Shown here one piece after another: positions 8,627 to 30,810 of a stretch of DNA of 33,189 bases; position 1 is the stretch's first letter; every line of letters starts with the position of its first letter. Under the pieces are notes generated by a model. It saw only the letters and a list, made by a program, of their open reading frames with translations. It did not search any database and was not told the DNA's origin. Source of the DNA: a virus. The stretch spans positions 1 through 33,189 of the IMG/VR virus record IMGVR_UViG_3300049893_000484, one strand, 5' to 3'. Made by a program: the position numbers and the translations under genes.

Positions 8627-11146
8627 ATGTATCAAGCAATTTATATTGAACGTGGTGAAGGGTTTGGAAATGATATCGTGCATCTCTGGGATGATGAGAT
8701 GGGATATCAGACCATTCCGTATAACAAATTTGACTATGCGTACAAGCCAGACCGAAGCGGTACGTATATCAGTATGACGGGTGTAAAACTCGCAAAGGTC
8801 AAGCGTTATAAGCGTGATGACCAATCGTTGTTTGAGAGCGACCTTCCCCAAGAGACTCGCGTTCTCACCGATTTGTATCTCAATGAAGATGACCCATCCA
8901 AGGGACACAAGCTGATGTTCTTCGATATCGAAGTGTCTATGGAAAATGGTGTGCCAAATATTGAGAATCCGAATAATGAAATTACGTCCATTGCCGTGTA
9001 TGACAATATCACACAGCAATATACCGTGTTGGTATTGGATAAGGCTGGTACACATCCGAGTTATGAGAAAGAGAATGTTAATGTCGTGATGTATGGGTCT
9101 GAATTAGACTTGCTATATGGATTCTTGGACTTGTATGAGCAGATTGGACCAACAATCATCTCTGGTTGGAACAGCGATTACTTTGACGTACCCTATCTAT
9201 ATAATCGGTTGAAGCAGCAGTGTGGTCCAAATACTGCGGGTCGGTTATCTCCGATTGGGAAGTTGAAGTATTCCAAGTTCCGTAGAAAGTATCAGATTGC
9301 TGGTGTATCTTCACTAGATTATCTTGACCTCTATAAGAAGTTTACCTATACCCAGCAACCGAATTATCGTTTGGATACGATTGGTCGGTTAGAAGTGGGC
9401 ATGGGCAAGGTTGAATATGAAGGTTCACTAGATGAATTGTTCCGTAACGATTTGAATAAGTTTATTGAATACAATCTTCAAGACGTTCGTATTCTTGTGG
9501 AGATGGATAAGAAGCTCAAGTTGATTGAACTGGTACGTGGTATCTGTCATTTGGGTCACGTGCCGTATGAGGATTATGGATATAGTTCAAAATTCTTGGA
9601 AGGAACCATCGTCACTTATCTTCATCGGAAGGGTATTATCGTGACCAACAAACCCGCTGGTGGTCGTGAAATGATGGACAATAAGGTGGAGAACGATGAG
9701 GAAGGATTCGCTGGTGCGTTCGTGAAGGAACCTGTGCCGGGGTTGTATGAGTGGGTCTATTCTCTCGACTTACAATCGCTGTATCCATCTATCATTATGA
9801 GTCTCAATATCAGTCCAGAAACCAAGATTGGGTTTGTGACCAACTGGAATGTGGACAAGCATATGAATGAGCAGATGACTGAATATCTCATCCGTGGTAC
9901 AAACGATGATGATGTGGTTCGGTTGTCCCGTGAGGCATTCTTGAAGTATATGCGAATGGAAAATCTGATGATTAGTTCCAACGGCGTATTGTACAATGGA
10001 AATGGTATTGGGATTATTCCAGAGGTGCTTGACCGCTGGTTCGCTCAACGTGTGGAGTTTAAGAACACGATGAAGAAGTATAAGAATGAGGGGAACACAG
10101 AACTGGCAGAATATTATGACAGACGCCAACACATTCAGAAGATTTTCTTGAATTCGTTGTATGGTGTACTTGGACTTCCTATCTTCCGATTCTTTGATAT
10201 TGATAATGCTCTTGCTGTAACCGCTTCTGGTCAAGATGTGATTAAGAAGTCTGCGGCATTTGCAAATCAACTCTATCAGAATAAGTTGAATACCCAAGAA
10301 GATTATTGTACGTATATTGATACCGATTCGTTGTATTTCTCAGCAACTCCGTTGATGCCAGAAAATGGTGGAAAGGACTTCACTATCAAGCTTGCTCGGG
10401 TAATGGAAAAGAAGTTGAATGAGTATTACGATACAATGGCACAAGACTTGTTCTTCTGTAAGAATCATCGGTTGTATATCAAGGGTGAGTCGGTCGCTGA
10501 AACTGCGGTCTGGATTGCCAAGAAACGGTATACAATGAATGTGGTCTATGATTTGGAATCTAACCTTGATGTTGCAAATAAGATGAAGGTCAAGGGATTG
10601 GACGTTGTTCGGTCATCATTCCCACCAGCCTTCCGTGACTTTATGAATAAGATGATGAAAGACATCTTGAATAGAACCAGTAAGGATGAGATTGACAAGA
10701 AGGTATTGGACTTCCGTGATTCAATGAACGGGATGAGCTATCTCGAAGTTGCGAGAAATACTGCGGTCAAGAATATTTCTGAATATTCCACCAGCGGGAA
10801 ACTCAATGACTTCCAGAAGGGAACCCCGGCTCACGTGAAGGCGGCATTGACATATAACGCCTTGTTGAAACATTTCAAGCTGGAAAACCGATATGAGAAG
10901 ATTACGGACGGGTCGAAGGTTAAGTGGTTGTATTTGAAGCAGAATCCGTGGAATCTCGAAGCGGTGGCGGTCAAGGGATATAATGACCCCCAAGAAATCG
11001 TTGAGATAGTAAATACTTATATTGATTATAATGCATTATTTGAGAACGAGTTACAAAAGAAATTAGAAGATTTTTATTCGGCATTAAAATGGGGTAATAT
11101 ACCCACCGAAATTAATCAGAACGCATCGGAATGGTTTAGTTTCTGA
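8627..11146 (+). CDS. 43: Family B DNA polymerase, gp43-like
   Basis: An 839-residue replicative polymerase with an intact 3'-5' exonuclease domain (Exo I FFDIEVS at 98-104; Exo II GWNSDYFDVPY; Exo III EYNLQDVRIL) and polymerase domain (motif A SLDLQSLYPSI near 378-390, motif B KIFLNSLYGVLG near 504, motif C YIDTDSLYF near 562). It is a little shorter than T4 gp43 (898). The gene is continuous, with no intron or split, which makes sense to note because a candidate homing endonuclease sits just upstream. GGAGGTT fixes the start. Its partners gp45, gp44 and gp62 are encoded 7-13 kb downstream. Confidence 0.96.
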   Translation: MYQAIYIERGEGFGNDIVHLWDDEMGYQTIPYNKFDYAYKPDRSGTYISMTGVKLAKVKRYKRDDQSLFESDLPQETRVLTDLYLNEDDPSKGHKLMFFDIEVSMENGVPNIENPNNEITSIAVYDNITQQYTVLVLDKAGTHPSYEKENVNVVMYGSELDLLYGFLDLYEQIGPTIISGWNSDYFDVPYLYNRLKQQCGPNTAGRLSPIGKLKYSKFRRKYQIAGVSSLDYLDLYKKFTYTQQPNYRLDTIGRLEVGMGKVEYEGSLDELFRNDLNKFIEYNLQDVRILVEMDKKLKLIELVRGICHLGHVPYEDYGYSSKFLEGTIVTYLHRKGIIVTNKPAGGREMMDNKVENDEEGFAGAFVKEPVPGLYEWVYSLDLQSLYPSIIMSLNISPETKIGFVTNWNVDKHMNEQMTEYLIRGTNDDDVVRLSREAFLKYMRMENLMISSNGVLYNGNGIGIIPEVLDRWFAQRVEFKNTMKKYKNEGNTELAEYYDRRQHIQKIFLNSLYGVLGLPIFRFFDIDNALAVTASGQDVIKKSAAFANQLYQNKLNTQEDYCTYIDTDSLYFSATPLMPENGGKDFTIKLARVMEKKLNEYYDTMAQDLFFCKNHRLYIKGESVAETAVWIAKKRYTMNVVYDLESNLDVANKMKVKGLDVVRSSFPPAFRDFMNKMMKDILNRTSKDEIDKKVLDFRDSMNGMSYLEVARNTAVKNISEYSTSGKLNDFQKGTPAHVKAALTYNALLKHFKLENRYEKITDGSKVKWLYLKQNPWNLEAVAVKGYNDPQEIVEIVNTYIDYNALFENELQKKLEDFYSALKWGNIPTEINQNASEWFSF

Positions 11147-11169: not shown

Positions 11170-11191
11170 CACACTAACCCATAGTGGTGTG
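11170..11191 (+). other. Hairpin in the TonB-receptor leader
   Basis: CACACTA (11170-11176) can pair with TGGTGTG (11185-11191), including one G-U pair, around an 8-base loop. No T-run follows, so it is not a standard terminator; it could shape the mRNA leader just before the AAAGAG ribosome binding site. Confidence 0.3.
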
Positions 11192-11211
11192 TGGTTAAAG
11201 AGAATCGTTGT

Positions 11212-13929
11212 ATGATGAACAAATTGTTGGCCACTTTTTTAGCAACTGTGATGTTGTCGGTACCTTCTTTTGCACAAGGTCGTATAGTTGGTCGTGTGGT
11301 TGATGCAGGTAATGGAGTAGGAATTTCTGATGCAGGTATTCAAGTGGTGGGTACGACGATGGGTACTGTATCTGGTGTGGAAGGTAGGTTCACCATTAAC
11401 AACGTACCAGCAGGTACGGTGACCATCCTTGTCAGACGAATTGGTTATACCCCCAAGACTATTACAGGATTATTTCTTGTTAGGGGTCAAACGTTACAAC
11501 AAGACATTTCACTATCAGCTGCAAACATTTTATTGTCCGCACAAGTTGTCACCGCAGACGCAGAACGTGGGTCTGTTAATAGTGCGTTGGACAAACAACG
11601 GACTTCAACAAATGTGGTCAGTAGTATCACTTCTGAACAAATCAGTAAGAGTCCAGATGGTGATGCGGCACAAGCAGTCGGTCGTGTTTCTGGTGTAAGT
11701 GTACAAGATGGAAAGTATGTGTTCGTTCGTGGATTGGGTGATAGATATACCCAGACTTCGTTGAACGGAGCACGTATTCCAAGTCCAGAACCAGAAAAGA
11801 AAGTGGTTCCGTTGGATATGTTTCCCACGGGACTTTTACAAACGATTACCACAGTCAAGACATTCACGCCTGACCAACCAGGTGATTTCGCAGGAGCACA
11901 AGTAGATATTCAAACCCGTGAATTTCCTGCCCAACGTACATGGACATTCGGTACCAGTACAGGAGGAAGTGATGCAGTATTTGGAAAACAAGTATTGATG
12001 CCAAACTATGTTCGTGGTGACGTATTAGCAATGGGGTCCACTCACCGTCAACTTCCACAGTTTTTGGCAAGTTTCGGTAATTTTTCAAGTGGTGTTCCAT
12101 CACAAAACGATTATAACAGAATGGTGAGTGAGTTCCGTAATTCGTGGACACCACAAATGACTGAGGGAAGTGCAAACGCATCAACTTCCGTCTCTGTTGG
12201 TGGTACGGATTTCGGTGTAGGATATTTAGTGTCCACTACCTATTCTTATTCACAAGAAGCACGGATAAATCAAGAACGTGCCTTAGCATTAGCACAAGGT
12301 GGAAGTGAACCTACTGCGGTGGATAAGTTTTCTGGTGAATCTGGAAAGTCTAGTGTATTGTGGGGTGGATTGGCAAACTTCAGTAAATTAGCTGGTAATA
12401 GAACTCGTATTGCGTTCAACAACACCTATAACCGCACAATGGATTCTGAAGCTCGTAGAGAACGTGGGGTATCCGAAAACTTGGGGATTCCATTCATCAT
12501 CAATCGTCAGAAGTATGTGGAACGTGGTATTTACTCATCACAATTATTGATACAATCTGATATTACTGCAAATCAAAAGATTGAATTAGCAGGAACGTTA
12601 TCGGGTGTATCTCGTATTGAACCAGACCGCTCAGAATTCGTTCAAGCATTATTCACCAACCCATACAATAATGAATTGATGGCACCACAATGGTTCTCAT
12701 CATCCAACGAAGGTGCGGTCAGAACCTTTAGTGATTTACACGAAACCGCACAAGAGTTTCGTGCATTCCATCGTATCCAATTCGGTGAACCCGGTCGTAT
12801 GTTGGCTGTTAAGACGGGTGGATTGATTCGTCATACCGTTCGTGATGCAAACAGTACCGCATATAGTGTAAGTGGAAAAGGATTAAATCAATCCTATCGT
12901 GAAATGCAACCAGAACAATTATTCAGATTGTTCCGATATGACAGAGTATGGCAAGTTACCCCGATTGGTGTCGGTGGAAACTATGATGTATCTGATTTCA
13001 ATTATGCCGGATATACAATGGTGGAAAAGGAATTCAATCCACAATGGCAAATGATTACAGGTGTTCGTGCGGAATATTCTGATGTGTTGTTGAAGGCAGA
13101 ACCAACGATTGGAGCAAAGTCATTTACACATCCATTATTCCTTGATGTGTTACCCGCACTCGCAGTCACCTATCGTCCAAATGATTTTATTAATTTCCGT
13201 GTGTCGGCATCACAAACATTATCTCGTCCAGAATATCGTGAACTCGCGCCGATTATGTATCGTGAAGTAATGGGATTTGATAACGTGTTCGGAAATCCTA
13301 AATTAGAACGTGCCTTAGTACAGAACTATGATTTCCGTTGGGAATGGTATCCAAACGCCGGAGAAGTGGTAAGTGTCGCATTATTTGCAAAACAATTCAC
13401 CAATCCAATTGAACGTGTATATCAAGGGTCATCGGGTACTCGTATCATTACCTTCGTCAACGCAGAAGGAGCAAACAACTATGGAGTGGAATTAGAACTC
13501 CGTAAGAACATCACCGATAATTGGATGGTATCTACAAACGCAACTGTAATGGAAAGTGATATTCGTATTGCGAAAGGAACGTCCGCAGTCACGAACACCA
13601 ATCGTCCGATGGTGGGTCAAGCACCTTATATGTTCAACACAGGCGTCACGTGGACTTCAAATACAGGAGTAGCAAGTGCTACCCTTCTGTATAATGTGGT
13701 AGGGGCACGTATCACGGAAGCAGGAGAAGTACCATTACCAGATGTCAAAGAAATGGAACGTAATATTGTAGACGTATCGGTTAGATTCCCATTAATAAAT
13801 AATATTTCTGTCAGAATGGATATAAAGAATATATTAGATGCCCCATATCGGTTTATGCAAGGACCAGTCGTTCGTGAGTCTTATAGAATAGGTCGTGGTC
13901 TAAATATAGGATTTAATTGGAATAGATAA
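11212..13929 (+). CDS. TonB-dependent outer-membrane receptor
   Basis: A complete receptor of 905 residues. From ATG 11212 the N-terminus is a clear signal peptide (MMNKLLATFLATVMLSVPSFA, cut before QG). A carboxypeptidase-regulatory-like beta-sandwich follows (GRVVDAGNGVGISDAGIQV ... GRFTINNVPAGTVTILVRRIGY), then the plug domain (DGDAAQAVGRVSGVSV, VFVRGLGDRYTQTSLNGARI) and a long beta-barrel. The end is GFNWNR, without the usual terminal Phe. Such receptors import large ligands (siderophores, B12, glycans) using TonB energy. The RIGY and PSPEPEKKVVPLDMFPTG features recall Gemmatimonadota-type receptors, by impression only. GTG 11191 is upstream in frame, but AAAGAG at 11197-11202 favours 11212 or 11215. 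Glutamine is mostly CAA. The stop overlaps the next start, tying it to the phage operon. Its position right behind DNA polymerase is very unusual. Confidence 0.9.
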   Translation: MMNKLLATFLATVMLSVPSFAQGRIVGRVVDAGNGVGISDAGIQVVGTTMGTVSGVEGRFTINNVPAGTVTILVRRIGYTPKTITGLFLVRGQTLQQDISLSAANILLSAQVVTADAERGSVNSALDKQRTSTNVVSSITSEQISKSPDGDAAQAVGRVSGVSVQDGKYVFVRGLGDRYTQTSLNGARIPSPEPEKKVVPLDMFPTGLLQTITTVKTFTPDQPGDFAGAQVDIQTREFPAQRTWTFGTSTGGSDAVFGKQVLMPNYVRGDVLAMGSTHRQLPQFLASFGNFSSGVPSQNDYNRMVSEFRNSWTPQMTEGSANASTSVSVGGTDFGVGYLVSTTYSYSQEARINQERALALAQGGSEPTAVDKFSGESGKSSVLWGGLANFSKLAGNRTRIAFNNTYNRTMDSEARRERGVSENLGIPFIINRQKYVERGIYSSQLLIQSDITANQKIELAGTLSGVSRIEPDRSEFVQALFTNPYNNELMAPQWFSSSNEGAVRTFSDLHETAQEFRAFHRIQFGEPGRMLAVKTGGLIRHTVRDANSTAYSVSGKGLNQSYREMQPEQLFRLFRYDRVWQVTPIGVGGNYDVSDFNYAGYTMVEKEFNPQWQMITGVRAEYSDVLLKAEPTIGAKSFTHPLFLDVLPALAVTYRPNDFINFRVSASQTLSRPEYRELAPIMYREVMGFDNVFGNPKLERALVQNYDFRWEWYPNAGEVVSVALFAKQFTNPIERVYQGSSGTRIITFVNAEGANNYGVELELRKNITDNWMVSTNATVMESDIRIAKGTSAVTNTNRPMVGQAPYMFNTGVTWTSNTGVASATLLYNVVGARITEAGEVPLPDVKEMERNIVDVSVRFPLINNISVRMDIKNILDAPYRFMQGPVVRESYRIGRGLNIGFNWNR

Positions 13930-14642
13930 TGTCTATGAAAAATTTACTTACTATTGTTATCCCGTGTAAAAATGAAGAAAAATATATTGGTCATTTACTT
14001 GAATCTTTATCACAACAATCTGGTATTGGAGGTGTTCGTATTATTGTCGCAGATGCCGATAGTACCGATAATACAGTCTCTACTATAAAACTCTATGATG
14101 ATGTATTGCATATTGAAGTCATCAAGGGTGGGACTGTATCAGTTGGACGAAACAACGGTGCAAAGTTAGTCACTACACCATATATTCTATTCTTAGATGC
14201 CGATGTGAGACTGTTCAGTAAGTTAGCAATTTTTGATGCAGTCCATATAATAGATTCTCACCGATTAGATTTAGTTACCGCAAACATAAAGAACTATGGA
14301 AAGGATTGGAGAGCATCATTCTTTTTCTGGGGATTTAATATTATCAATAAGATTATGACCAAGACAACTCCATTTGCGATTGGTGCATTCTTTTTGACTC
14401 GTCGTGATAAGTTTGAAGAACTCGGCGGATTCCCGAATAAGTACGAAACTTCCGAAGATTATATTCTCAGTAAGCAGTATGATGCTGACAAGTTTGCTAT
14501 TGTAAATCACTACTTCGGTCAAGACGAACGCAGATTCAATAAGTTGGGATATTTAGGAATGTTGTGGTATATGACAGTCAACTTCTTCAATAGAAATAAT
14601 CTGACGCACTTTGAAAAAGCTAACGTAAATTATTGGGACTGA
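13929..14642 (+). CDS. Family 2 (GT-A) glycosyltransferase
   Basis: A 237-residue GT2 enzyme: nucleotide-binding start LLTIVIPCKNEEKYIGHLL, the VADADSTDNT turn, and the metal-binding LFLDAD (DxD, about 88-92). GGFPNKYETSEDY matches the conserved acceptor/catalytic-base region. It transfers a sugar from a nucleotide donor, probably to an envelope glycan or lipid. Hydrophobic patches (FFFWGFNI, LGMLWYMTVNFF) suggest membrane association. It begins on the last base of the TonB receptor stop codon and ends 1 base before the phosphoesterase gene, so all three are one translational unit. Confidence 0.87.
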   Translation: MSMKNLLTIVIPCKNEEKYIGHLLESLSQQSGIGGVRIIVADADSTDNTVSTIKLYDDVLHIEVIKGGTVSVGRNNGAKLVTTPYILFLDADVRLFSKLAIFDAVHIIDSHRLDLVTANIKNYGKDWRASFFFWGFNIINKIMTKTTPFAIGAFFLTRRDKFEELGGFPNKYETSEDYILSKQYDADKFAIVNHYFGQDERRFNKLGYLGMLWYMTVNFFNRNNLTHFEKANVNYWD

Positions 14643-14643
14643 T

Positions 14644-15372
14644 ATGAAACATCACAAGGCAATTATCATCTCGGATGTCCATTTAGGAACGGAAGCAAGC
14701 AAGGCGGCAGAACTCCTCGAATTCTTAACAGAAAATCATACTGATATTTTAATTATCAACGGTGATTTTGTAGATGGATGGGCACTCGCAAAGGGATACA
14801 AATGGAGAAGTAAGCACACAAAGGTTATTTCAAAGATACTAGACATCTCCAGAAAGGTGCCTGTGGTGTGGATTCGTGGAAATCACGATGAGTTCTTACA
14901 TGAATTTATGCATATGCACTTGGGGAAACTTCAAGTAGAAGAAAACTATATTTTAGATTTAGGTGAAGGAAAGAAATACTTTATCTTCCACGGAGATATT
15001 CTGGACGTATTCGTTGCCAAATGGAAATGGATTGCACAGATTGGAGCAAGTGGATATGACCTTGCCCTCCGTATCAATACAATATACAATAAGTGGAGGA
15101 AGTGGAGAAAACTTCCATATTACTCTATTTCCAAAGATATTAAGAATGGAGTAAAGGCAGCAGTCAACTACATCACAGACTTTGAAGTAAGTGCCACAAA
15201 ACTCGCTCGTCAACATAATTGTTCTGGGGTCATTTGTGGGCACATTCATAAACCAGAGAATAGACAAATCGCAGGTATTCATTATGTCAACTCTGGCGAT
15301 TGGGTAGAAAATCTTACTGCGGTTATTATTGACCACGATAATAACATTATAATAAAAGACTTTCACAAATAA
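14644..15372 (+). CDS. LpxH-like calcineurin-fold phosphoesterase (UDP-2,3-diacylglucosamine diphosphatase family)
   Basis: A 242-residue metallophosphoesterase with the full metal-ligand set: ISDVHLG (D11, H13), NGDFVDGW (D41), RGNHDEF (N80, H81), FHGD (H116) and CGHIHKPE (H200, H202). This pattern and the length fit the LpxH family, which cleaves UDP-2,3-diacylglucosamine to lipid X in lipid A synthesis; related family members act on other nucleotide-lipid or sugar diphosphates. Operon company with a glycosyltransferase and an outer-membrane receptor supports an envelope role. True LpxH activity is not proven by motif alone. Confidence 0.85.
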   Translation: MKHHKAIIISDVHLGTEASKAAELLEFLTENHTDILIINGDFVDGWALAKGYKWRSKHTKVISKILDISRKVPVVWIRGNHDEFLHEFMHMHLGKLQVEENYILDLGEGKKYFIFHGDILDVFVAKWKWIAQIGASGYDLALRINTIYNKWRKWRKLPYYSISKDIKNGVKAAVNYITDFEVSATKLARQHNCSGVICGHIHKPENRQIAGIHYVNSGDWVENLTAVIIDHDNNIIIKDFHK

Positions 15373-17054: not shown

Positions 17055-17420
17055 ATGGAAGATAAAAAGAATCCAAACGCATTAACATATGGAATATCTC
17101 CTAGTGCTCCCGCATCCATTAAACCCGTTGAGGTGGATAAGTGGGTAGGAAAGGTTGAACCCACCTTTAAGCATTATTACCAAGAACGATATGATGATTT
17201 GGTTAGACAATACGAAAATCTCGTTCGTGATTATGAAATCAATAAAATGTGTTACGAGGCTTCGTTAGGGTTTGAACCGAATATGGGACACGTATACCAC
17301 TTGTATCGTAAACGTGATGGGAGTACATTTCTTTCTATGGTAGAACCCAAGTATGCATATTGGGGTGAATTTATTGGTAGTTACAGATTAAACGCACAAT
17401 ATGCGTGGGAAGAAGTCTAA
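17055..17420 (+). CDS. DUF2452-like phage protein
   Basis: A 121-residue protein with the pattern NPNALTYGISPSAPASIKP at the N-terminus, a central coiled helix (YYQERYDDLVRQYENLVRDY) and a C-terminal FEPNMGHVYHLYRKRDG ... FLSMVEP, which I recognise as the DUF2452 type found in phages and bacteria without known function. The start is fixed by GAGGTTATTATG just after the tRNA-like element. The stop overlaps the start of the first Mom-like gene. Confidence 0.75.
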   Translation: MEDKKNPNALTYGISPSAPASIKPVEVDKWVGKVEPTFKHYYQERYDDLVRQYENLVRDYEINKMCYEASLGFEPNMGHVYHLYRKRDGSTFLSMVEPKYAYWGEFIGSYRLNAQYAWEEV

Positions 17421-18004
17421 TGGCACTACAAGGTTATAAAGTAGAACATATATCGTTTTCTGATACGGTTCGGTCGTTTCTTCGTAAATGGCACTATTCC
17501 GATTATGTCAATATCCAAGCAAAAGAAGTATTTGGATTGTTTCGGGATGGTGCTTTTTTACCTGAAATGGTCGGAGTGTGTATTTATACTAGGCCTGCTG
17601 GACCAACAGCGGCACAAAAGTATTATCCACAAGACCCCGATAAGTGTTTAGAACTTCGTCGGTTGTGCCTGGTGGACGATACTCCAAAGAACGCTGAAAG
17701 TTTCTTTGTGAGTCGGACGTTGAAATGGTTACGGAAGAATACCGATTGGAAGTTTGTGGTCAGTTACGCAGACCCAGAGCAAGGTCATAAAGGTGTGATT
17801 TACCGAGCAGCAAATTTTAAATACGAAGGTACAACCTCATCGGGTCAATCGTTATTGGTAGATGGTAAACCGTTTCATATTAGAACACTAACAATGATTG
17901 ATAGACCATATGGAGTCGAAATCAATCAGCGATATAAAGCTGGTGACCCAAATATTCAAATTGTAAAGACGGAACCAAAACATATTTACACGTATCAACT
18001 CTAG
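17420..18004 (+). CDS. Mom-like GNAT-fold protein, candidate DNA-modification enzyme (copy 1)
   Basis: The 194-residue protein starts MALQGYKVEH at the ATG overlapping the previous stop. It carries the signature shared with phage Mu Mom: LELRRLCLVDDTPKNAESFF, then VVSYADPEQGHKGVIYRAAN (the first residue near 113). Mom is a GNAT-fold enzyme that carbamoylmethylates adenine in DNA and makes phage DNA resistant to restriction. Here the gene is read with replication genes rather than late genes as in Mu. The same motifs recur in the longer protein at 22845. Substrate and chemistry are inferred. Confidence 0.75.
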   Translation: MALQGYKVEHISFSDTVRSFLRKWHYSDYVNIQAKEVFGLFRDGAFLPEMVGVCIYTRPAGPTAAQKYYPQDPDKCLELRRLCLVDDTPKNAESFFVSRTLKWLRKNTDWKFVVSYADPEQGHKGVIYRAANFKYEGTTSSGQSLLVDGKPFHIRTLTMIDRPYGVEINQRYKAGDPNIQIVKTEPKHIYTYQL

Positions 18005-18013
18005 GAGGACACA

Positions 18014-18376
18014 ATGGGAATGTTCGACACGCTGAAGGTTCAAACAAAGATTCCAGGATACTCTGATATTCCTCTTGGGGAATTCCAAACAAAATCATTA
18101 GATAGTTGTCTAGATTATTATGTTATAACTAATAATGGTGAATTATATAAGGAAGTTTGGGATTATAGTTGGGTAGAGGATGCTACTTCTGCTTTTAATG
18201 GGTATTTTGATAAGGTAGAAGGGTCATATCGCCGGGAGTACTTGACAAACTTCCACGGGGATATTATATTTTATAATGGAGAAACTGTTGGTGGAAAGTG
18301 GCGAGAATATACCGCTCGATTCACCGAAGGTAGACTGTCACGCATTTGGTACGAAGATAAAGATTTAAACAATTAA
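18014..18376 (+). CDS. Conserved phage protein of unknown function, 120 aa
   Basis: AGGAGG at 18003-18008 fixes the start. The N-terminus MGMFDTLKVQTKIPGYSDIP and the phrase FQTKSLDSCLDYYVI belong to a small-protein type common in phages, usually annotated as hypothetical. It has no membrane segment or catalytic motif. A consensus promoter for the clamp gene lies inside its coding sequence. Confidence 0.75.
   Translation: MGMFDTLKVQTKIPGYSDIPLGEFQTKSLDSCLDYYVITNNGELYKEVWDYSWVEDATSAFNGYFDKVEGSYRREYLTNFHGDIIFYNGETVGGKWREYTARFTEGRLSRIWYEDKDLNN
18242..18270 (+). promoter_or_regulatory. Internal consensus promoter for the sliding clamp gene
   Basis: TTGACA at 18242-18247, a 17-base spacer and TATATT at 18265-18270 lie inside the preceding coding sequence, 121 bases before the clamp ATG. 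The exact match and spacing repeat those at 577, 8576, 15392 and 21458. Confidence 0.6.
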
Positions 18377-18391
18377 AAGAGGTCAAAGGTT

Positions 18392-19111
18392 ATGGAAAAG
18401 TCAAAGTTGGAGCGGTTCATTTCAAAGTACAACATCGGCGGAGCATGTGAGAGTGTGAAGCTCGTATCGAATGGTACCGAGCTATCCGTTCGTTCGATTT
18501 CGGATGACAAGAATGTTCTCGCTGAAATTGTCAGCCACGATATGTCGTTCCCCGCTGGTGAGTTCAGTATCTATGAAACGAAGAAGCTCCGTTCGCTGTT
18601 GAGTGTCTTGGGTGAGAAGCTCAAGGTCGCTCCGAATTCAGCAAATGGAAAGTCGGTCGGACTCAATATGTCTGACTCCGATACTAAGGTTACGTTCGTT
18701 TTGGCGGATGAGTCGGTCATCCCGAAGGTTCCCGATTTGAAGAAGCTCCCGCCGGTAGATATCGAAATCATTCTTGATGAGAAGTTTGTCAATACCTTCG
18801 CTAAGGCAAAGGGTGCGTTGTCTGAGGTGGATACCTTCACCGTGACCAGCGATGGAACCGATGCGAATGTCGTTATCGGATATTCCACGTTGAATACGAA
18901 TCGGGTGAATATCAAGGTTAACACCAAGAGCAATGCGAAGATTGACCCGATTAGTTTCTCCGCTAACTACTTGAAGGAGATTCTTCTGTCGAACAAGGAA
19001 ATCAAGGATGGTATCTTGAAGGTCAGTTCGAAGGGTATCTCTGTTGCGGAATTCGATGGTGAGGGGTTCACCACGAAGTACTATCTCGTTCAGATTGACA
19101 CGAAGGATTAA
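18392..19111 (+). CDS. 45: Sliding clamp, gp45-like
   Basis: A 239-residue clamp. The N-terminus KLERFISKYNIGGACESVKL and the repeated beta-alpha-beta pattern match T4-type gp45, which forms a trimeric ring that tethers gp43 polymerase and later activates late transcription. T4 gp45 is 228 residues. The sequence has evenly spaced beta strands (ELSVRSISDDKNVLAEIVS; ANVVIGYSTLNTNRVNIKV) and a C-terminal strand FTTKYYLVQID. The start of the next gene overlaps its stop (TAATGG). Confidence 0.88.
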   Translation: MEKSKLERFISKYNIGGACESVKLVSNGTELSVRSISDDKNVLAEIVSHDMSFPAGEFSIYETKKLRSLLSVLGEKLKVAPNSANGKSVGLNMSDSDTKVTFVLADESVIPKVPDLKKLPPVDIEIILDEKFVNTFAKAKGALSEVDTFTVTSDGTDANVVIGYSTLNTNRVNIKVNTKSNAKIDPISFSANYLKEILLSNKEIKDGILKVSSKGISVAEFDGEGFTTKYYLVQIDTKD

Positions 19112-20292
19112 TGGTCGGCTTCGACGATTTCTTTGACACGCCCAAGTTTGATTTCGACAAGGAGAAACAACTCTTTGTCGAAAACTTGGACATGCTTAAG
19201 AACATGCCCGTACAAGAGCAAACCTTGTATAAGAAGTACAAGGAGGTCAACGGGTATTATCGTAATGCTATGGATAAGGCTCGTATTGTAAAGGCGAAGA
19301 TTTGGACGCCGACCGACCTTACGAACAAGGAATTAACTGTCAAGGAAATCGAAGCGTTACAACCACGTGTTCGTCTGGTTGTGTCTAAGTCCACCGATGA
19401 AACCGATTGGAATATGATTCGAGTATTCTCCCATACGATGGAGTTTGACCAGAATCCCGGTCGGTTCGTGAGGTTCCTTGTGTATGATGAGGTGACGGGG
19501 AAGTATCTTGGTGCAACTTCGTTGGGTAGTGATGTTATTGCTATCGGATGTCGAGATGAATGGATTGGGTGGGACAAGGATACCAAGCTGAAGGGGAAGT
19601 TGAACAACTCCGCTATTGGCACGTGTATTATGGCTACTCAGCCGTTTGGATATAACTTCTTGGGCGGAAAGCTCGTTGCTTCGATGTTGACCACAAAGGT
19701 TGTCGCCGACACGTGGTTCAAGATGTATAACAATGTCTTGGCTGGGTTGACCACCACCTCGTTGTATGGTTCTGAGTCTATGTACAATTCTATTCCGTTC
19801 TGGAAGAAGTTGGGGTCGAGTACTGGTGCGATTGGTATTAAGCCCGATGATGATGTCTATGGAAAGTGGCATGACTATTTGAAGGAACACAAGCCGGACG
19901 AATATAAAGAACGCTTTACAAAAGATGACCCGTCAAAAGGGCCGGTCACTGGTATCAAACAACAAATTATCAATATGATTTTCCGTGAAGTGGGAGTTAG
20001 TGCGAGTAAGTACAAGCACGGCTTTGAACGTGGTGTATATTACGCTCCCCTTTACGAGAATACCCGTGAATTCCTTCGTGGAGAAATTGATGCTGATAAG
20101 TTGACTCCCTTGACAAAGTTGAAGGATGATGTAGATTCCGTTATTAACTGGTGGAAGCCGAAGGCTATTGCCCGATACCAGAAGCTGCATGAGGAAGGTC
20201 GTATCAAGGATGGTATTCTATACTATACGAATATGGTTGGGATTAGCTGGGAAGAAGCCAAGAGTCTATATCTATCAGAGGTTGGTCGTTAA
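19111..20292 (+). CDS. DruA/DUF4338-like protein
   Basis: A 393-residue protein. The core reads VRFLVYDEVTGKYLGATSLG (120-139), RDEWIGWD (148-155), KLNNSAIGTCIM, FGYNFLGGKLVASML and FWKKLGSSTGAIG. The order (own-substrate check, RD.WIGWD, nn.a, GgKL/aSk, then a W..LG.T.G turn) resembles DUF4338, the domain named after DruA of the Druantia anti-phage system, whose fold is related to GNAT/Mom-type proteins. Its presence inside a phage replisome operon, directly coupled to the clamp gene, suggests a role on DNA: modification, or mimicry or blocking of a host defence. No enzymatic activity can be read from the sequence. The family call is by pattern and moderately sure. Confidence 0.65.
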   Translation: MVGFDDFFDTPKFDFDKEKQLFVENLDMLKNMPVQEQTLYKKYKEVNGYYRNAMDKARIVKAKIWTPTDLTNKELTVKEIEALQPRVRLVVSKSTDETDWNMIRVFSHTMEFDQNPGRFVRFLVYDEVTGKYLGATSLGSDVIAIGCRDEWIGWDKDTKLKGKLNNSAIGTCIMATQPFGYNFLGGKLVASMLTTKVVADTWFKMYNNVLAGLTTTSLYGSESMYNSIPFWKKLGSSTGAIGIKPDDDVYGKWHDYLKEHKPDEYKERFTKDDPSKGPVTGIKQQIINMIFREVGVSASKYKHGFERGVYYAPLYENTREFLRGEIDADKLTPLTKLKDDVDSVINWWKPKAIARYQKLHEEGRIKDGILYYTNMVGISWEEAKSLYLSEVGR

Positions 20293-21611
20293 TGGATATT
20301 AATAATTTTTTAGAAGAAAGTTACGAAGCAAATAAACAATATGATTATCGTGTATTAATTTATGGAAATTATACCGATATTGAAAATCTCGAGCGTGACA
20401 GCTTCGTTCAAGTTCTGAAGCCCACGCTTGAGTATCTTGATGCACACTATAACATACATTATACCTTATTGACTCCGGCAACAATTAATAGCTTGAACAA
20501 GCCGAATGTCAAGCAGGTGATTTTTGAATTACCTACATATCCGAATTTGATGCGGACCCATTTTGATGCTATCAAGTTCTTAAAGGCGATTGATTGGAGA
20601 AAGAATGACTATGATATCATTTATAGTCATCTCCCCGAACATACCTCACAGATTGCTAACGTTATTCATAACAGCACGCATTTGATGCCAAAGATTATTG
20701 GATATTGTCATTGGTTCGAAGTTGCGGAAAATGCTCCGTATGCCAAGACAATGTTTCTCAATAATATTTTGGGTGTGTTGGAAATGGAAGAATGCGGTGT
20801 GAATAGTAAGTGGTTGAAGGATTTTGTGTTGGATGAAGCGATGGAACACTTCAATCAGCAGACAATTGACAAGTTGGATAAAATCATCCAGCCACATTAT
20901 CTAGGTGTTGACAGAGTTGAGTCAAATGGTCAGACTATAGATAAATCCGTTATCTTCAATCACCGAGCAAACGGGTATACGGGATGGAATTGGTTTGTTG
21001 AGGAAATGGATAAGTTATGGGAAAAGCGTCAAGACTTTACCGTGTACACAACGTATGCAAAGATTGACCGCCCGTGGAATAAGCAAATCAATGAACCGAC
21101 CCGTGAAGGGTATATCAATACATTAAAGCGGATGAAGTTCGGTGTATCGTGCTTTGAAGGATATTCGGCATGGAGCATCAGCACTACCGATGGTCTATCA
21201 GTTAATGTTCCGTACCTACTTCCTAACAAACTCTGTTATCCAGAAATGGTGCCGAAGGATTATCCGTATCTGTATGATGACCGAACGGACTTTGTTAAGA
21301 AATTTGAAGAAATGCTGGATACTGATTTGGTCTATCCGACGAATACCATTGCCAATACGATGCTATGGAACAATAGAATTTCTAAGTGGTTCGGTGGTTG
21401 GAATAATATATTTAAATTTAAAACAATGTCAAATTCAGAAGCAATGGATAGGATAGTTGACATTATTCGCCGGAAGAGGTATATTTCTAAATATGACCTA
21501 TCCAAAGAACTTGGGTGGGGTGTTCAAATCAAATGGACTCCATATCGGAATACCTTGCGTGAACACCCAAACATTAAATTAACGGTGGATGGATATGAAT
21601 GGAATGACTGA
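20292..21611 (+). CDS. GT-B glycosyltransferase with a possible C-terminal winged helix
   Basis: A 439-residue protein that begins on the last base of the previous stop. The body looks like a two-domain GT-B enzyme: Rossmann start YDYRVLIYGNYTD, a DIIYSHLPEHTSQI segment, MEECGVNSKWLKDF, the HYLGVDRV hinge, KSVIFNHRANGYTGWNWF and the C-terminal donor-site-like MKFGVSCFEGYSAWSISTTD. Residues from about 388 (RRKRYISKYDLSKELGWG) to the end look like a winged helix, usual in DNA-binding proteins. Its place between DruA-like and clamp loader genes suggests DNA base glycosylation rather than envelope work. That function is inferred; an ordinary sugar transferase is the alternative. Confidence 0.65.
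   Translation: MDINNFLEESYEANKQYDYRVLIYGNYTDIENLERDSFVQVLKPTLEYLDAHYNIHYTLLTPATINSLNKPNVKQVIFELPTYPNLMRTHFDAIKFLKAIDWRKNDYDIIYSHLPEHTSQIANVIHNSTHLMPKIIGYCHWFEVAENAPYAKTMFLNNILGVLEMEECGVNSKWLKDFVLDEAMEHFNQQTIDKLDKIIQPHYLGVDRVESNGQTIDKSVIFNHRANGYTGWNWFVEEMDKLWEKRQDFTVYTTYAKIDRPWNKQINEPTREGYINTLKRMKFGVSCFEGYSAWSISTTDGLSVNVPYLLPNKLCYPEMVPKDYPYLYDDRTDFVKKFEEMLDTDLVYPTNTIANTMLWNNRISKWFGGWNNIFKFKTMSNSEAMDRIVDIIRRKRYISKYDLSKELGWGVQIKWTPYRNTLREHPNIKLTVDGYEWND
21458..21486 (+). promoter_or_regulatory. Internal consensus promoter for the clamp loader genes
   Basis: TTGACA at 21458-21463, a 17-base spacer and TATATT at 21481-21486 lie in the last part of the glycosyltransferase gene, 102 bases before the clamp loader start at 21589. 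Confidence 0.6.
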
Positions 21612-22515
21612 GAACACTCTGTGGGTTGAGAAGTATCGCCCGAATACATTAGAAAACTATATCGGAAATGAAACACTAAAGGCGAAGTTGGCTGATTTCA
21701 TTTCACGGAACGATATCCCGCATTTGCTGTTCTTCGGAACGGCAGGAACGGGTAAGACCACGGCGGCAAAGATTCTGGTCAAGAATATTGAGTGCGACCA
21801 TCTCTTTATTAACGCATCGGATGAACGTGGTATTGATGTGATTCGGGATAAGATTAAGAACTTCGCTTCGACTACGGGGTTTGCTCCATTGAAGATTGTG
21901 GTACTGGATGAGTCTGACGCATTGACGCCGGATGCACAAGCCGCTCTTCGTAATATGATGGAAGTGTTCAGTCACAAGACCCGATTCGTATTGACTTGTA
22001 ATTATGTGGAACGGATTATCGCTCCGATTATCAGTCGGTGTCAGACGTTCGCGTTGACTCCGCCCTCGAAGAAGGAAGTGGCGGTTCACCTTACGAATGT
22101 CTTGACAAAGGAAGATGTGACCTTCGACAAGCAAGGAGTCGCTACGTTGGTCAACGCATATTATCCCGATATTCGTCGGATTATGAATACCGCTCAGCTC
22201 CAGACCAGAGATGGAAAGTTGACGGTGAATGTGAATGAGGTTATCGCTGGAGATAGTAAGTTGAAGATTATGGATACGTTGATGAGTAACCAACCTTCAG
22301 CAAATAAGATTCAAGAGATTCGTCAAGTCGTGGCTGATGCGGGAATCCGTGACTTTACCGAACTCTATCGGTTACTCTATGAGAAGGTTCAAGAGTATTC
22401 CCCGAACAAGATTCCTCAGACGATTCTTCATATCGCAGAAGGTCAGTATCGGGATGCGTTTGTAGTAGATAAAGAAATCAATTTTATGGCAACAATGTAT
22501 AACATTTTAATGTAA
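21589..22515 (+). CDS. 44: Clamp loader large subunit, gp44-like AAA+ ATPase
   Basis: A 308-residue AAA+ protein of the RFC small-subunit type. It opens with LWVEKYRPNTLENYIG, has Walker A GTAGTGKTT (50-58), Walker B VVLDESDAL (DESD 107-110), sensor 1 TCNY and the arginine-finger SRC box (149-151). With gp62 it loads the gp45 ring onto primed DNA. The start is uncertain among ATG 21589, 21595 and 21604; all overlap the end of the glycosyltransferase gene. Confidence 0.93.
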   Translation: MDMNGMTENTLWVEKYRPNTLENYIGNETLKAKLADFISRNDIPHLLFFGTAGTGKTTAAKILVKNIECDHLFINASDERGIDVIRDKIKNFASTTGFAPLKIVVLDESDALTPDAQAALRNMMEVFSHKTRFVLTCNYVERIIAPIISRCQTFALTPPSKKEVAVHLTNVLTKEDVTFDKQGVATLVNAYYPDIRRIMNTAQLQTRDGKLTVNVNEVIAGDSKLKIMDTLMSNQPSANKIQEIRQVVADAGIRDFTELYRLLYEKVQEYSPNKIPQTILHIAEGQYRDAFVVDKEINFMATMYNILM

Positions 22516-22524
22516 GAGGTAAGT

Positions 22525-22845
22525 ATGACAAGTAAGTACATTCCGCCCAGCGGACGGCCTGACCCACGACAGATGCAGCAACAGATGCCTGACCTGTCAC
22601 TCGCAGAGGACATTAGTTGTGAGAACTGCGGAAACCTCACCTTCCAAGAAGTTTTGATGATGAAGAAGGTATCTGCGTTAGTCTCACCAAACGGAAAGGA
22701 AGGCATTGTTCCGATTCCTACGTTTTCGTGTGTCGCCTGTGGATGGGTCAACAAGATGTTCCGTCCAAAGGGTAAGGTTGAGGAAGCAACTGCTGAGGAA
22801 GCCCCAGCAGAACCCACTCGTCCGAAGCTCGTATTAGAGGACTAA
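22525..22845 (+). CDS. Small zinc-ribbon phage protein
   Basis: A 106-residue protein with two CxxC pairs (C32/C35 in SCENCGN and C69/C72 in SCVACGW), fitting a four-cysteine zinc ribbon, between a Gln-rich N-terminus and an Ala/Glu-rich C-terminal tail. AGAGGTAAG precedes the ATG. It lies between gp44 and the second Mom-like gene and overlaps the latter (TAATGG). Zinc ribbons often bind nucleic acids or polymerases; the exact role is unknown. Confidence 0.7.
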   Translation: MTSKYIPPSGRPDPRQMQQQMPDLSLAEDISCENCGNLTFQEVLMMKKVSALVSPNGKEGIVPIPTFSCVACGWVNKMFRPKGKVEEATAEEAPAEPTRPKLVLED

Positions 22846-23690
22846 TGGAAACTACGTTCGTAGATAAGTCCCGTGTCACAGTCCGAGAAATCTCAAAGAA
22901 TGTGGCACGGGATTTTATCGAAACCCACCATTACACGCACAAGTTTTCTTCTACCAGATATGCCCTTGGGGTATTCTATGTGGAAGATACAGAACATGCG
23001 TTCTTTGCTGGTGCGAACGAGAAGCTTATTGGGTGTATGACCTATGGGCATCCTGTCAGCAATAGAACGGTGGATAGTATTACGGACGGCTTAGAGTTGG
23101 ATGAAGTATTGGAATTGACCAGATTGGTCTGCTTGGATGGATACGGAAAGAATCTGGAAAGTTTTGTAATTGCTCAGTCGTTTGATTGGATGAAGAAGAA
23201 TGACCCCAAGGTGAAAGTCTTGGTCAGTTATGCAGACCCTGAACAAGCACATACGGGTGGAATCTACAGAGCAACCAATTGGCTGTATCAAGGATGTGGA
23301 TATTCCAAGTTGATGCCAGATTATAGTATTCGTATTAATGACAATGACCTCTGGACTCATAGCCGTACCGTTGGGGCCAGATGGGGTAATAAGTCTGTCG
23401 AGAATCTGGCAAAGAGTATCGGTCAAACCTTCTACAGAAAAGAGGAAACGGCTAAACATCGGTATATCTATTTCCTTGTTGGGAAGAAAGAAAAGAAGCG
23501 GATGATGAAGAACTTGAAGATTCCAGTATTCTCATATAATGAAATAAAACCGTATACCCAACTTATTCAGAAGGTGCATGTAAAGGACGGGGCGGTGGAA
23601 CGTATTGAAATCCTGCAAGGGGTTGACAACGGGTGGTCAAACAAACAAATTCTAATGCAGGAGGATGACGATGGCGAAGAGTCTATTTGA
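22845..23690 (+). CDS. Mom-like GNAT-fold protein, candidate DNA-modification enzyme (copy 2)
   Basis: A 281-residue protein with the same core as the gene at 17420: FIETHHYTHKFSSTRYALGVFY, LELTRLVCLDGYGKNLESFV and VLVSYADPEQAHTGGIYRAT (SYADPEQAH at 128-136), followed by NWLYQG. It has about 90 additional residues at the C-terminus. Phage Mu Mom is the reference member and converts adenine to an N6-carbamoylmethyl form. The divergence between the two copies suggests different targets or a division of labour rather than recent duplication. It starts on the stop of the zinc-ribbon gene. Confidence 0.77.
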   Translation: METTFVDKSRVTVREISKNVARDFIETHHYTHKFSSTRYALGVFYVEDTEHAFFAGANEKLIGCMTYGHPVSNRTVDSITDGLELDEVLELTRLVCLDGYGKNLESFVIAQSFDWMKKNDPKVKVLVSYADPEQAHTGGIYRATNWLYQGCGYSKLMPDYSIRINDNDLWTHSRTVGARWGNKSVENLAKSIGQTFYRKEETAKHRYIYFLVGKKEKKRMMKNLKIPVFSYNEIKPYTQLIQKVHVKDGAVERIEILQGVDNGWSNKQILMQEDDDGEESI

Positions 23691-24102
23691 CCATATTAAT
23701 ACAATATATCTCGAACAGAAGAAGAACTATTTTGCTGGATTAGATGATGGGGAGAAGCGGACCTATAGCAATTATATGGTCAACCGATTCCTCAGCATGA
23801 ATATTCACCAGCTCCCGCTGGTTAATGAGATTCAGAAGTACAATATTCCTTCCGATGTTCACTATTTATTCTTTGCGACCACGATTCCTCGTGGAAAGCA
23901 ATATAACAAATATGTGAAGTCAAAGAACGAAACCAAGTATGATAGCTGGTTAATTACTTTGGTGGCGAAGCACTTCAACGTGTCCGAAGATGAAGCGGTC
24001 ACATATTTGGACATTTATCATAAAGACGACAAACCCGCCCTCAGGTCTTTGTGTGAAAAGTATGGGGTGGACCCAAAGATTATTAAAAAGGCAAAGTTAT
24101 GA
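23671..24102 (+). CDS. 62: Clamp loader small subunit, gp62-like
   Basis: A 143-residue protein starting MAKSLFDHINTIYLEQKKNY; the perfect AGGAGG at 23659-23664 lies 6 bases before ATG 23671, so the upstream ATG 23665 is unlikely. SLFDHIN near the start, YMVNRFLSMN and YWLITL-like C-terminal helices match T4-type gp62. It completes the gp44/gp62 loader. Its beginning overlaps the end of the Mom-like gene by 20 bases. Confidence 0.8.
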   Translation: MAKSLFDHINTIYLEQKKNYFAGLDDGEKRTYSNYMVNRFLSMNIHQLPLVNEIQKYNIPSDVHYLFFATTIPRGKQYNKYVKSKNETKYDSWLITLVAKHFNVSEDEAVTYLDIYHKDDKPALRSLCEKYGVDPKIIKKAKL

Positions 24103-25451: not shown

Positions 25452-25479
25452 TCATAGGTCTAGTATCCTAAGAGGAATT

Positions 25480-26352
25480 ATGAACAAGGTTTCGTACAGT
25501 CAATATACAACGTGGGCAAATTGCCCCGAATCGTGGAAGCTGAAGTATGTGGATGGTCATCGTATTGATGATGGCTCCATTCATACTATCTTTGGAACAG
25601 CCATGCACGAAGTCATCCAAGAGTGGATGGAACACTATCTCTTTAATGGAAAGGAATTACAGGCGTCAAGCATTGACCTTGACGAAAATCTAAAGACCAA
25701 GTTCCACGAACACTTCAAGAATTCTATCAAGGAAGTGGACGGACAGAAGGTATTCCCGTGCGACCGACCGACATTGGAAGAATTCTATCACCAAGGCACA
25801 CAGATTCTTTCTTACGTTCAGGCGAATCAGAAGAAGTTGTTCCCTACACAAAACACCAAACTGCTTGGTATTGAATTTCCGATTGACGTAGAGGTTCGTC
25901 CCGGCGTTCAGTATGTTGGGTATGTGGATATTCTTACCCAGAATGAACGTACTGGTCTAATTACGATTTATGATTTAAAGACCAGTCGTGCGGGTTGGAC
26001 GCAGGCACAGAAGTCGGATAAGACCAAGATTAGTCAGCTCCTTCTGTATAAGAAGTTTATCTCCGAACATTTCAATGTTCCGTTAGAATCGGTACGGGTT
26101 GAGTATATCATTCTCAAGCGGACTATCTCTGAGAACTCTCCGTATCCGATTCCACGTGTCAGTCCGTTTGAACCTCCGCATGGGAAGCCGTCTGTCAATC
26201 GGGCGTGGACTGACTTTGAAGCATTCTTGAACGATTGTTTTGACGAGGTTGGTCAGTATAAGACCGACACAATTAAGCATAAGGCAAGTAAGAACGCCTG
26301 TAAGTATTGTGTGTTCCGTGAGCGTAAAGACCTTTGCAAGTACGGGGTGTAA
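25480..26352 (+). CDS. Cas4/RecB-like PD-(D/E)XK nuclease with a likely Fe-S cluster
   Basis: A 290-residue nuclease. The RecB-type active site is H43 (GTAMHEVIQEW), E132, D150 (GYVDIL), then D165-L-K167 (IYDLKTSR) and the QLLLY motif (186-190). Four cysteines are placed as in Cas4 and AddB iron-sulfur nucleases: C15 (WANCPESWKLKY) and C274, C277, C286 (NACKYCVFRERKDLCKYG). Such enzymes resect DNA ends in recombination or degrade host DNA. It has its own promoter; AGAGGAATT fixes ATG 25480. No CRISPR array or other cas genes are seen in the window. Confidence 0.87.
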   Translation: MNKVSYSQYTTWANCPESWKLKYVDGHRIDDGSIHTIFGTAMHEVIQEWMEHYLFNGKELQASSIDLDENLKTKFHEHFKNSIKEVDGQKVFPCDRPTLEEFYHQGTQILSYVQANQKKLFPTQNTKLLGIEFPIDVEVRPGVQYVGYVDILTQNERTGLITIYDLKTSRAGWTQAQKSDKTKISQLLLYKKFISEHFNVPLESVRVEYIILKRTISENSPYPIPRVSPFEPPHGKPSVNRAWTDFEAFLNDCFDEVGQYKTDTIKHKASKNACKYCVFRERKDLCKYGV

Positions 26353-27624: not shown

Positions 27625-27858
27625 ATGCCACGAAAGAAGAAAGAAACTGTTGATAGTTTAAAATTGGACTTCACAGGTAAGATGGTGGTCCTTGTTGATT
27701 TAGAGGGATGGGGTCCGATGGAACTTAAAGTAGACGATAAAGAAGTAACACTCGCAGTTATGAAATTGATATTGGAACGTATAGGAAATGTATCTACGGT
27801 AGATTCCTATACAACCGCAGAAGGTAAGAAACTTAAGAAAATGTTGGAGGGGAAATGA
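27625..27858 (+). CDS. Hypothetical protein, 77 aa
   Basis: GGGAGGG at 27614-27620 precedes ATG 27625. The protein begins with a basic MPRKKKETVD and is otherwise a small alpha/beta domain (MVVLVDLEGWGPMELKVDDK, then VDSYTTAEGKKLKKMLEGK). No family recognised. It overlaps the cupin gene by 4 bases. Confidence 0.6.
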   Translation: MPRKKKETVDSLKLDFTGKMVVLVDLEGWGPMELKVDDKEVTLAVMKLILERIGNVSTVDSYTTAEGKKLKKMLEGK

Positions 27859-28214: not shown

Positions 28215-28237
28215 ATGAAGTTTTAGAAATGTAACCA

Positions 28238-28247
28238 GATACTTATT
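28238..28247 (+). promoter_or_regulatory. GATACTTATT motif, candidate phage promoter element (copy 5)
   Basis: GATACTTATT ends 27 bases before the ATG at 28275, in the only non-coding gap of this block. It would drive the small protein and the glycan genes behind it. Confidence 0.38.
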
Positions 28248-28274
28248 CTATAGAAGGTTATAGACGAGGTTACT

Positions 28275-28445: not shown

Positions 28446-28449
28446 TAAT

Positions 28450-30809: not shown

Positions 30810-30810
30810 T

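Follow-up and report, generated by a model that had tools for sequence, protein, structure and literature searches.

Mom systems and phage DNA glycosylation are already known kinds of phage DNA modification. In T4, the alpha-glucosyltransferase binds the gp45 sliding clamp (PMC13216743), and the clamp ligands gp43, gp55, and gp33 have similar hydrophobic, acidic, and interchangeable C-termini (PMC2988020). DUF4338, the domain of the Druantia type I protein DruA, has been termed a GNAT domain (PMC10853773). Here we analyzed IMG/VR virus record IMGVR_UViG_3300049893_000484, positions 1 to 33,189 (the whole 33-kb stretch is referred to below as the window), in which two Mom-like genes (Mom1 and Mom2), a DruA-like gene, and the gene for a GT-B glycosyltransferase (GT) are set among the genes for the sliding clamp and clamp loader. 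Modification of DNA in some form is the highly probable function of this block, and it is likely that the block encodes DNA hypermodification enzymes that work with the replisome as a replication-linked module of T4-like phages; any specific chemistry is doubtful. Homology, conservation of the active-site residues, the repeated linkage of DruA, GT, and Mom, exchange with DNA methyltransferases, and purifying selection together give good support to the assignment as a DNA-modification module. The combination of Mom, DruA, and GT, the Mom-like predicted structure of DruA, the exchange slot, and the shared clamp-like peptide are new.

The window contains a T4-like replication block with genes for a gp32-like protein, UvsX, a gp41-like helicase, ribonucleotide reductase, dUTPase, a family-B polymerase, ligase, and the clamp and clamp loaders. 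The gene order in the region of interest was DUF2452 protein, Mom1 (17420..18004), small protein, clamp (18392..19111), DruA-like protein (19111..20292), GT (20292..21611), gp44 (21589..22515), zinc ribbon, Mom2 (22845..23690), gp62 (23665..24102), and dCMP deaminase, with all of the genes for which coordinates are given here on the plus strand. The T4-type 45-44-62 order is broken by three modification-type genes, and a fourth, Mom1, lies directly upstream. No family model matched the clamp protein (18392-19111) alone; used as a profile, it matched annotated cyanophage gp45 clamps (94% probability, E = 1.3e-7, 188 columns), and its homologue is located between polB and gp44 in Microcystis phage Mel-JY01 and adjoins gp44 in many relatives. 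The clamp loader subunits were identified as gp44 (phrog_168, E = 9.5e-82; the likelier start is 21604, as relatives begin MTENTLW) and gp62 (PF16790, E = 1.1e-13; phrog_225, E = 2.3e-23). The interleaving of modification genes with the clamp and gp44 that had been described in a first-pass annotation of this DNA was thus borne out. Its statement that most junctions are 1-base overlaps held for four of them (17420, 19111, 20292, and 22845), whereas GT and gp44 overlap by 23 bases, Mom2 and gp62 by 26 bases, and the remaining cassette junctions are short gaps. Since 1-base overlaps were also found in the window outside the cassette (7044, 13929, 29844, and 32145), gene overlap alone is uninformative on the coupling of modification to replication, and we dropped it as evidence; independent support for coupling came instead from the polymerase-like N-terminal peptide of the DruA-like protein described below.

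Both Mom-like genes were verified by profile searches. Mom1 (194 residues, short subtype) and Mom2 (281 residues, long subtype) matched the Pfam Mom family PF25680 with 126 bits (E = 1.9e-36) and 155 bits (E = 3.4e-45), respectively, above the curated cut-off of 27 bits, which also applies to PF14236 below. They also matched PHROG 1384, 'Mom-like DNA modification protein' (E = 2.6e-47 for Mom1 and 2.5e-51 for Mom2), and Mom2 matched the solved phage Mu Mom (PDB 8bv8) in a phmmer search (E = 3.2e-6). A profile scan of the whole record revealed exactly two Mom genes. The start of Mom1 is the ATG at 17420, with an in-frame GTG at 17405 as a possible alternative. The motifs SYADPEQ(G/A)H and IYRA(A/T)N are common to both proteins, as had been noticed earlier; however, the motif quoted there as a signature of phage Mu Mom is not literally present in Mu Mom, which has SFADERCGRAGVVYQASNF at the aligned place, and is thus a family signature. 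Both Moms keep the His-Tyr pair, the Arg of ELxRL, the Glu-Ser that follows KN, the Asp of SYAD, and the Tyr of IYxA in alignment with Mu Mom, and these residues are invariant or near-invariant across 22 homologues. We take the aligned His-Tyr, Arg, Glu, Asp, and Tyr residues to be catalytic in Mu Mom. The 8bv8 entry is titled 'inactive mutant S124A', and the equivalent of S124 would be the Ser of the conserved KN(L/A)ESF motif. As members of this family, the Mom proteins are putative enzymes for N6-methylcarbamoylation of adenine in DNA.

Mom1 and Mom2 share 32% identity and represent anciently separated subtypes. In close relatives, which were freshwater ones for Mom1, the identities were 88-91% for Mom1 and 91-94% for Mom2. 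Since both are kept in all close relatives with a complete region and other phages hold two or three Moms, the two proteins probably aim at different targets. A Mu-like com-mom pair was considered and rejected: the zinc-ribbon gene upstream of Mom2 (22525..22845, plus strand; Cys pairs; Zn_ribbon_3, E = 0.0014) has a counterpart between 44 and 62 without Mom in Mel-JY01 (L004; other loci are designated by L numbers). In relatives without GT (L020:8410-8997 and 9789-10571), Mom2 is flanked by two inserted genes, one for a ClpP-like protease and one with weak similarity to sulfotransferases. An apparent CHASE2-domain nucleotide cyclase, as read from sequence, lies near Mom in another viral lineage (L037:1330-3021 and L040:9951-11801).

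The DruA-like protein matched PF14236 (117 bits, E = 1.1e-33) and the PADLOC DruA profile (E = 1.4e-26), in agreement with its first assignment as a DruA/DUF4338-like protein. An AlphaFold2 model built from 30 sequences had a mean predicted local distance difference test (pLDDT) score of 89 and a predicted template modelling (pTM) score of 0.84. The top Foldseek matches of this model were nearly all acetyltransferases at E values of only ~0.01, so that here the support for a GNAT fold lies in the consistency of the match list. VIA-align gave Z scores of 8.5-10.4 to GNATs; Mu Mom 8bv8 ranked first among the PDB chains (Z = 10.4 over 157 residues at 3.3 A), whereas generic GNATs reached 9.2. The predicted structure is a GNAT fold with Mu Mom as the closest solved structure. 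Profile comparison found no sequence-level link between DruA and Mom; only fold comparison joins them. A fusion of DruA with a ParB_N domain in a marine Bacteroidetes single-cell genome supports an action of DruA on DNA. Most directly, the homology with DruA suggests that DUF4338 proteins are Mom-like DNA acyltransferases. The first-pass proposal that the block defeats Druantia-type defence found no support, as the phage protein is a homologue of DruA and not an inhibitor. A Druantia island was likewise rejected: a PADLOC scan of ten window proteins gave no partner genes and no large DruE-type helicase beside druA (the window open reading frames are at most 912 residues long), and besides DruA it returned only a weak match of a PD-(D/E)XK nuclease at 25471-26352 to DruK (E = 3e-4). 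Four other loci (L105:7247-8005, L109:7196-7960, L122, and L125) encode a second, short DruA homologue of ~255 residues directly 5' of GT in addition to a full-length DruA; it matched PF14236 with E = 1.4e-25 in L109 and has its own N-terminal FFDIE motif.

The AlphaFold2 model of the protein encoded at 20292-21611 (pLDDT 89, pTM 0.87) confirmed a predicted GT-B (GT4-like) glycosyltransferase fold, as had been proposed. Residues 16-377 form the GT-B/GT4-like part, with VIA-align Z scores of up to 27.6 to retaining GT-B enzymes (best match 7qsg_A, Z = 27.6, 332 residues, 3.3 A), and Foldseek returned 281 matches at E <= 0.001, with E = 6e-12 to GT-B enzymes. In Pfam and PHROG scans, no family matched GT or its C-terminal domain above threshold; GT homologues matched Glycos_transf_1 and Glyco_transf_4 weakly, below cut-off, and the nearest sub-threshold match of the C-terminal region was HTH_Tnp_Tc3_2 (E = 0.05). 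According to DSSP of the model, residues 383-437 form a separate small helix-helix-wing domain, in which the family stretch LGWGVRI...PYRNxLR is conserved, and this domain is most simply read as a winged helix (helix-turn-helix-like). Close relatives replace GT by a shorter version that lacks the C-terminal domain. The Pfam scan of GT gave no match to PF11440 and PF09198, the T4 alpha- and beta-glucosyltransferase families named in PMC13216743. A hydroxymethyl-pyrimidine acceptor for GT was considered and found unsupported: TET/JBP was detected in 0 of 18 large records, a weak test in which the control was also silent, and a thymidylate-synthase family in 7 of 18.

Structure prediction, run for the DruA-like protein and GT, and a search for the block in other phages had both been suggested as checks in the first-pass annotation; the former gave the GNAT and GT-B folds described above, and the latter showed that the block recurs, with Mom interleaved. 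The GT family had 412 viral matches and three in bacterial genomes; by tblastn, it had no match in 50,697 phage records. Among the 62 viral GT loci in which 1 kb or more of sequence was available upstream, 44 had DruA within 2.5 kb upstream of GT on the same strand, often with overlapping ends. DruA, Mom, and GT are contiguous in L137, and the order is Mom-DruA-x-GT-Mom-polB-45-44-62 in L097 and DruA-Mom-x-GT followed farther on by Mom-45-Mom-44-62 in L070. In L037, from the other viral lineage, Mom and GT occur with a cyanophage-type DruA, which belongs to a separate DruA subfamily. Mom was present in 19 of 32 records with the window type of DruA/GT and in 0 of 11 records of a distant DruA clade (Fisher p = 4e-4; p = 1e-3 when three records that had been found through Mom were left out); since many records are fragments, these counts are lower bounds. 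The ParB_N-DruA fusion mentioned above is convergent with a short form of GT (L224:7098-9287 and 5989-7101; the same in L225), and in these marine Bacteroidetes single-cell genomes the pair lies beside a resolvase and an integrase-like gene. This pair may be a form of the module that belongs to bacteria or to a mobile element.

The position between DruA and GT, or just after GT, is a slot in which other genes are exchanged. GmrSD_N nucleases above the Pfam cut-off occupy it in L048:11393-13060, L062:3334-4686, and L067:855-2306, between DruA and GT or between GT and gp44, and two of them have an HNH domain. A GmrSD_N gene inside a phage cassette is unusual, since GmrSD enzymes are known to act against phages, as type IV restriction enzymes that target glucosylated DNA. 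The same slot holds an N6/N4 methyltransferase in L115 and L072, a D12 adenine methyltransferase in L117, and a PLOD-type glycosyltransferase in L087 and L090. L040 has a methyltransferase-like gene (TSPPYF motif; N6_N4_Mtase, 26.5 bits, just below the cut-off of 26.7) at the position of DruA-GT in its sister locus L037. This exchange suggests by association, and does not prove, a role in DNA modification and restriction. The ratios of nonsynonymous to synonymous substitutions (dN/dS) of Mom1 (0.065), DruA (0.06), GT, and Mom2 (0.06-0.08) all lay in the range of 0.06-0.08, like that of gp44, indicating purifying selection. In comparisons of the window with its nearest relatives, the conservation of Mom1, DruA, and Mom2 equalled or exceeded that of gp44, and GT was exchanged or absent.

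A short peptide may link these enzymes to the clamp. The window DNA polymerase B (gp43-like; 8627..11146, plus strand; phrog_262, E = 2.6e-185) ends in NASEWFSF, which we propose as the clamp-binding reference peptide. The C-termini of its relatives end in WFSF, FFSF, FFGF, FFAF, and the like, with the FF/WF motif in 22 of 25, and gp55-like sigma factors (phrog_234) often end in SGSFF, with FF or FW near the end in 17 of 37. The putative clamp-binding peptide of the window DruA-like protein is located at its N-terminus (19111..19158, plus strand; MVGFDDFFDTPKFDFD), where FDDFFD is clear. In the DruA tree, this protein type forms one well-supported module clade with N-termini such as MxFxDFFDE, SDFFDV, or MKFWDTG. 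FF, FW, WF, or FDF occurred within the first 20 residues of 50 of 51 module-clade DruA proteins and 0 of 53 in the sister clade, counted on non-redundant sequences, and in 3.8% of a background of 1,382 other genes. The motif was also present in 23 of 59 GT N-termini (MSEFFETT, MSDFFEY, and MSFFETT; internal-window rate, 15%) and 8 of 31 Mom C-termini (KFFDFGE, KEFFNI, and KFW; internal-window rate, 14%). DNA methyltransferases with a C-terminal FF include those of L040 (...STLEDFF), L072 (...RNEFF), L056 (...EKFFEF), and L033 (...LVQFF); some were found by searching for FF, so that these give no unbiased rate. When DNA methyltransferases were chosen by a DPPY-like motif, FF or FW was found in about 4 of ~9, a small sample. 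The end of the L040 enzyme, STLEDFF, resembles that of the polymerase of its sister L027, ASLEDFFG. Judging from these sequence patterns, the FF/FW peptides are somewhat more probably clamp-docking peptides than anything else.

We propose the following mechanism. Like Mu Mom, the two Moms would place a small acyl-type group on adenines, and the DruA-like protein would act on DNA as a third, Mom-like GNAT. The GT-B enzyme, held on DNA by its winged-helix-like domain, may add a sugar to the base or to the GNAT-placed group. At least the DruA-like enzyme would dock on the gp45 clamp by its hydrophobic-acidic peptide, like the C-termini of the polymerase and gp55, and in relatives GT, some Moms, and some of the exchangeable DNA methyltransferases may dock likewise; with such docking, nascent DNA would be modified behind the fork. 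The product would shield phage DNA from host nucleases and from the nucleases that some phages carry in the same cassette. The carbamoylmethylated adenine plus sugar named in the first-pass annotation is a guess, and acylation is suggested by the Mom family. A bolder version, in which Mom, a Mom-like DruA, and a helix-turn-helix GT4 build a sugar-bearing base on nascent DNA, a portable docking peptide has been acquired by unrelated enzymes, Druantia DruA is a DNA acyltransferase, and the whole is a widespread, undescribed system, is offered as a tentative possibility.

Several points weigh against this proposal. All of these viruses are known only from metagenomes, and the modification of their DNA is a prediction. 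The strict GT4 motif EX7E is not obvious in GT, which leaves its donor and even its activity unproven. The near relatives L020-L026 keep both Moms and the DruA-like gene without GT, and GT is therefore not essential to the rest of the cassette. With regard to docking, the peptide of the window GT is no more than a weak variant (INNFLEE) and the window Moms lack one, the motif pattern was chosen after the sequences had been viewed, and the conservation of the DruA tail is partly common descent within one clade. Moreover, binding of the T4 alpha-glucosyltransferase to the clamp has recently been found not to be the main determinant of glucosylation in T4 (PMC13216743).

Other functions of the cassette were weighed against a replication-linked module. 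Only the two Moms might modify DNA, as in Mu-like anti-restriction, with the DruA-like protein and GT as operon passengers and GT acting on host surface polysaccharide. Mom is well known as a stand-alone system, the window has other glycosyltransferases and an epimerase at 28414-32145, and the relatives without GT fit this explanation; however, the linkage of GT with DruA in most of the loci counted, its independent occurrence in L037 and in a mobile-looking bacterial element, the sharing of the GT slot with DNA methyltransferases and GmrSD nucleases, the helix-turn-helix-like domain of GT, and the Mu Mom-like predicted fold of DruA make it improbable. The cassette might instead serve mainly in attack or defence, like a restriction-modification or Druantia system, with DruA, Mom, and GT marking phage DNA and a variable nuclease (GmrSD_N-HNH, GIY-YIG-like, or others) destroying unmarked host or rival DNA. 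The GmrSD_N nucleases in or beside the DruA-GT pair, the Mom-REase fusions reported in jumbo phages (PMC7824862), and the role of DruA as a Druantia component point in that direction, but the window slot holds no nuclease, the proteins scanned include no large Druantia helicase, and many cassettes lack a recognizable nuclease; we regard this explanation as slightly more improbable still. Least probable is that the GNATs and GT modify proteins or RNA, e.g., host RNA polymerase or the clamp. GNAT and GT4 folds do serve many substrates, and phage GNATs that modify RNA polymerase exist, such as Rac, which acetylates it (PMC7824862). Nevertheless, the sequence identity and active-site conservation of the Moms are specific to a DNA-modifying family, and the ParB_N-DruA fusion and the DNA methyltransferase in place of DruA-GT in a sister phage also argue for DNA.

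A separate question is whether the FF/FW peptide on DruA serves in packing or is a chance feature, with replication coupling reduced to operon co-expression. Hydrophobic tails can pack intramolecularly, the motif is nearly fixed in a single clade so that one origin could explain much of the count, and cyanophage-type DruA genes adjoin clamp genes without having the peptide. On the other hand, the tail is a low-confidence part of the AlphaFold2 model, the FF/FW core is kept while its flanks and position vary, and the same type of core recurs at the C-termini of polB and gp55 as well as on unrelated modification enzymes. We consider the packing or chance explanation rather unlikely and favor clamp docking.

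If true, the proposed module would connect the adenine acylation known from Mu with the glycosylation of phage DNA and with the unexplained DruA/DUF4338 family, and would give DruA a testable enzymatic role as a DNA acyltransferase. A new modified base would be predicted in abundant freshwater and marine T4-like viruses, where it would affect restriction, CRISPR, and the sequencing of these viruses. Phages would also swap DNA-modifying enzymes as clamp-docked plug-ins, and the clamp peptide would be a simple marker for further modification enzymes.

The search among phage records found no close nucleotide relatives of the window. The small protein between Mom1 and the clamp (18014..18376, plus strand; phrog_1615, E = 4e-6) is conserved and syntenic among relatives. 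A 912-residue protein 3' of the polymerase (11191-13929) matched phrog_5687, of unknown function, weakly (E = 8e-10). Between the polymerase region and ligase, a small gene for a GtrB-like glycosyltransferase leads into one for a metallophosphoesterase (13929-15372). A cysteine-dioxygenase-like cupin, two more glycosyltransferases, and a nucleotide-sugar epimerase are encoded at 27855-32145 and may represent a sugar-donor supply or a surface-glycan cluster. The polB and/or gp44 frames are split in L003, L097, and L136, possibly by inteins or homing-endonuclease insertions.

Compared with phage Mu, the window Moms share profile membership and the aligned residues with Mu Mom, which is also the best solved match of the DruA-like model; however, the window phage has two Moms, set in the clamp/clamp-loader operon of a T4-like phage, and lacks a com-like partner, as the zinc-ribbon gene also occurs without Mom. 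Homology with Druantia type I DruA is clear, but the window gene has no Druantia helicase or other component nearby among the ten proteins scanned and lies among phage replication genes together with Mom and GT. In Synechococcus phages S-PRM1 and S-SCSM2R, a DUF4338 gene is located directly behind gp44 and before gp62 (L006:5839-6990 and L005:5731-6852); one has been annotated as 'methylcarbamoylase mom', and these genes were previously described only as defence-protein look-alikes (PMC12774648). They belong to a separate subfamily (~25% identity) that lacks the N-terminal FF peptide, and the regions examined contained no GT; they represent a further insertion of a Mom-like GNAT among clamp genes, distinct from that in the window. 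The jumbo-phage Mom-REase system (PMC7824862) likewise combines Mom GNATs with linked nucleases in large T4-like phages. As described, however, it does not include DruA and GT, and those of the present cassettes that have a nuclease encode it in a gene of its own, which is variable and lies beside DruA-GT. The window GT differs from the T4 alpha-glucosyltransferase in lying outside the T4 Pfam families, in being GT4-like with an extra helix-turn-helix-like domain, and in having no identified hydroxymethylcytosine pathway, and here the peptide is clearest on the DruA-like GNAT. As a phage DNA-modifying glycosyltransferase recruited by the gp45 clamp (Sommer 2004, PMC13216743), the T4 enzyme is nevertheless our proposed working model for this module.

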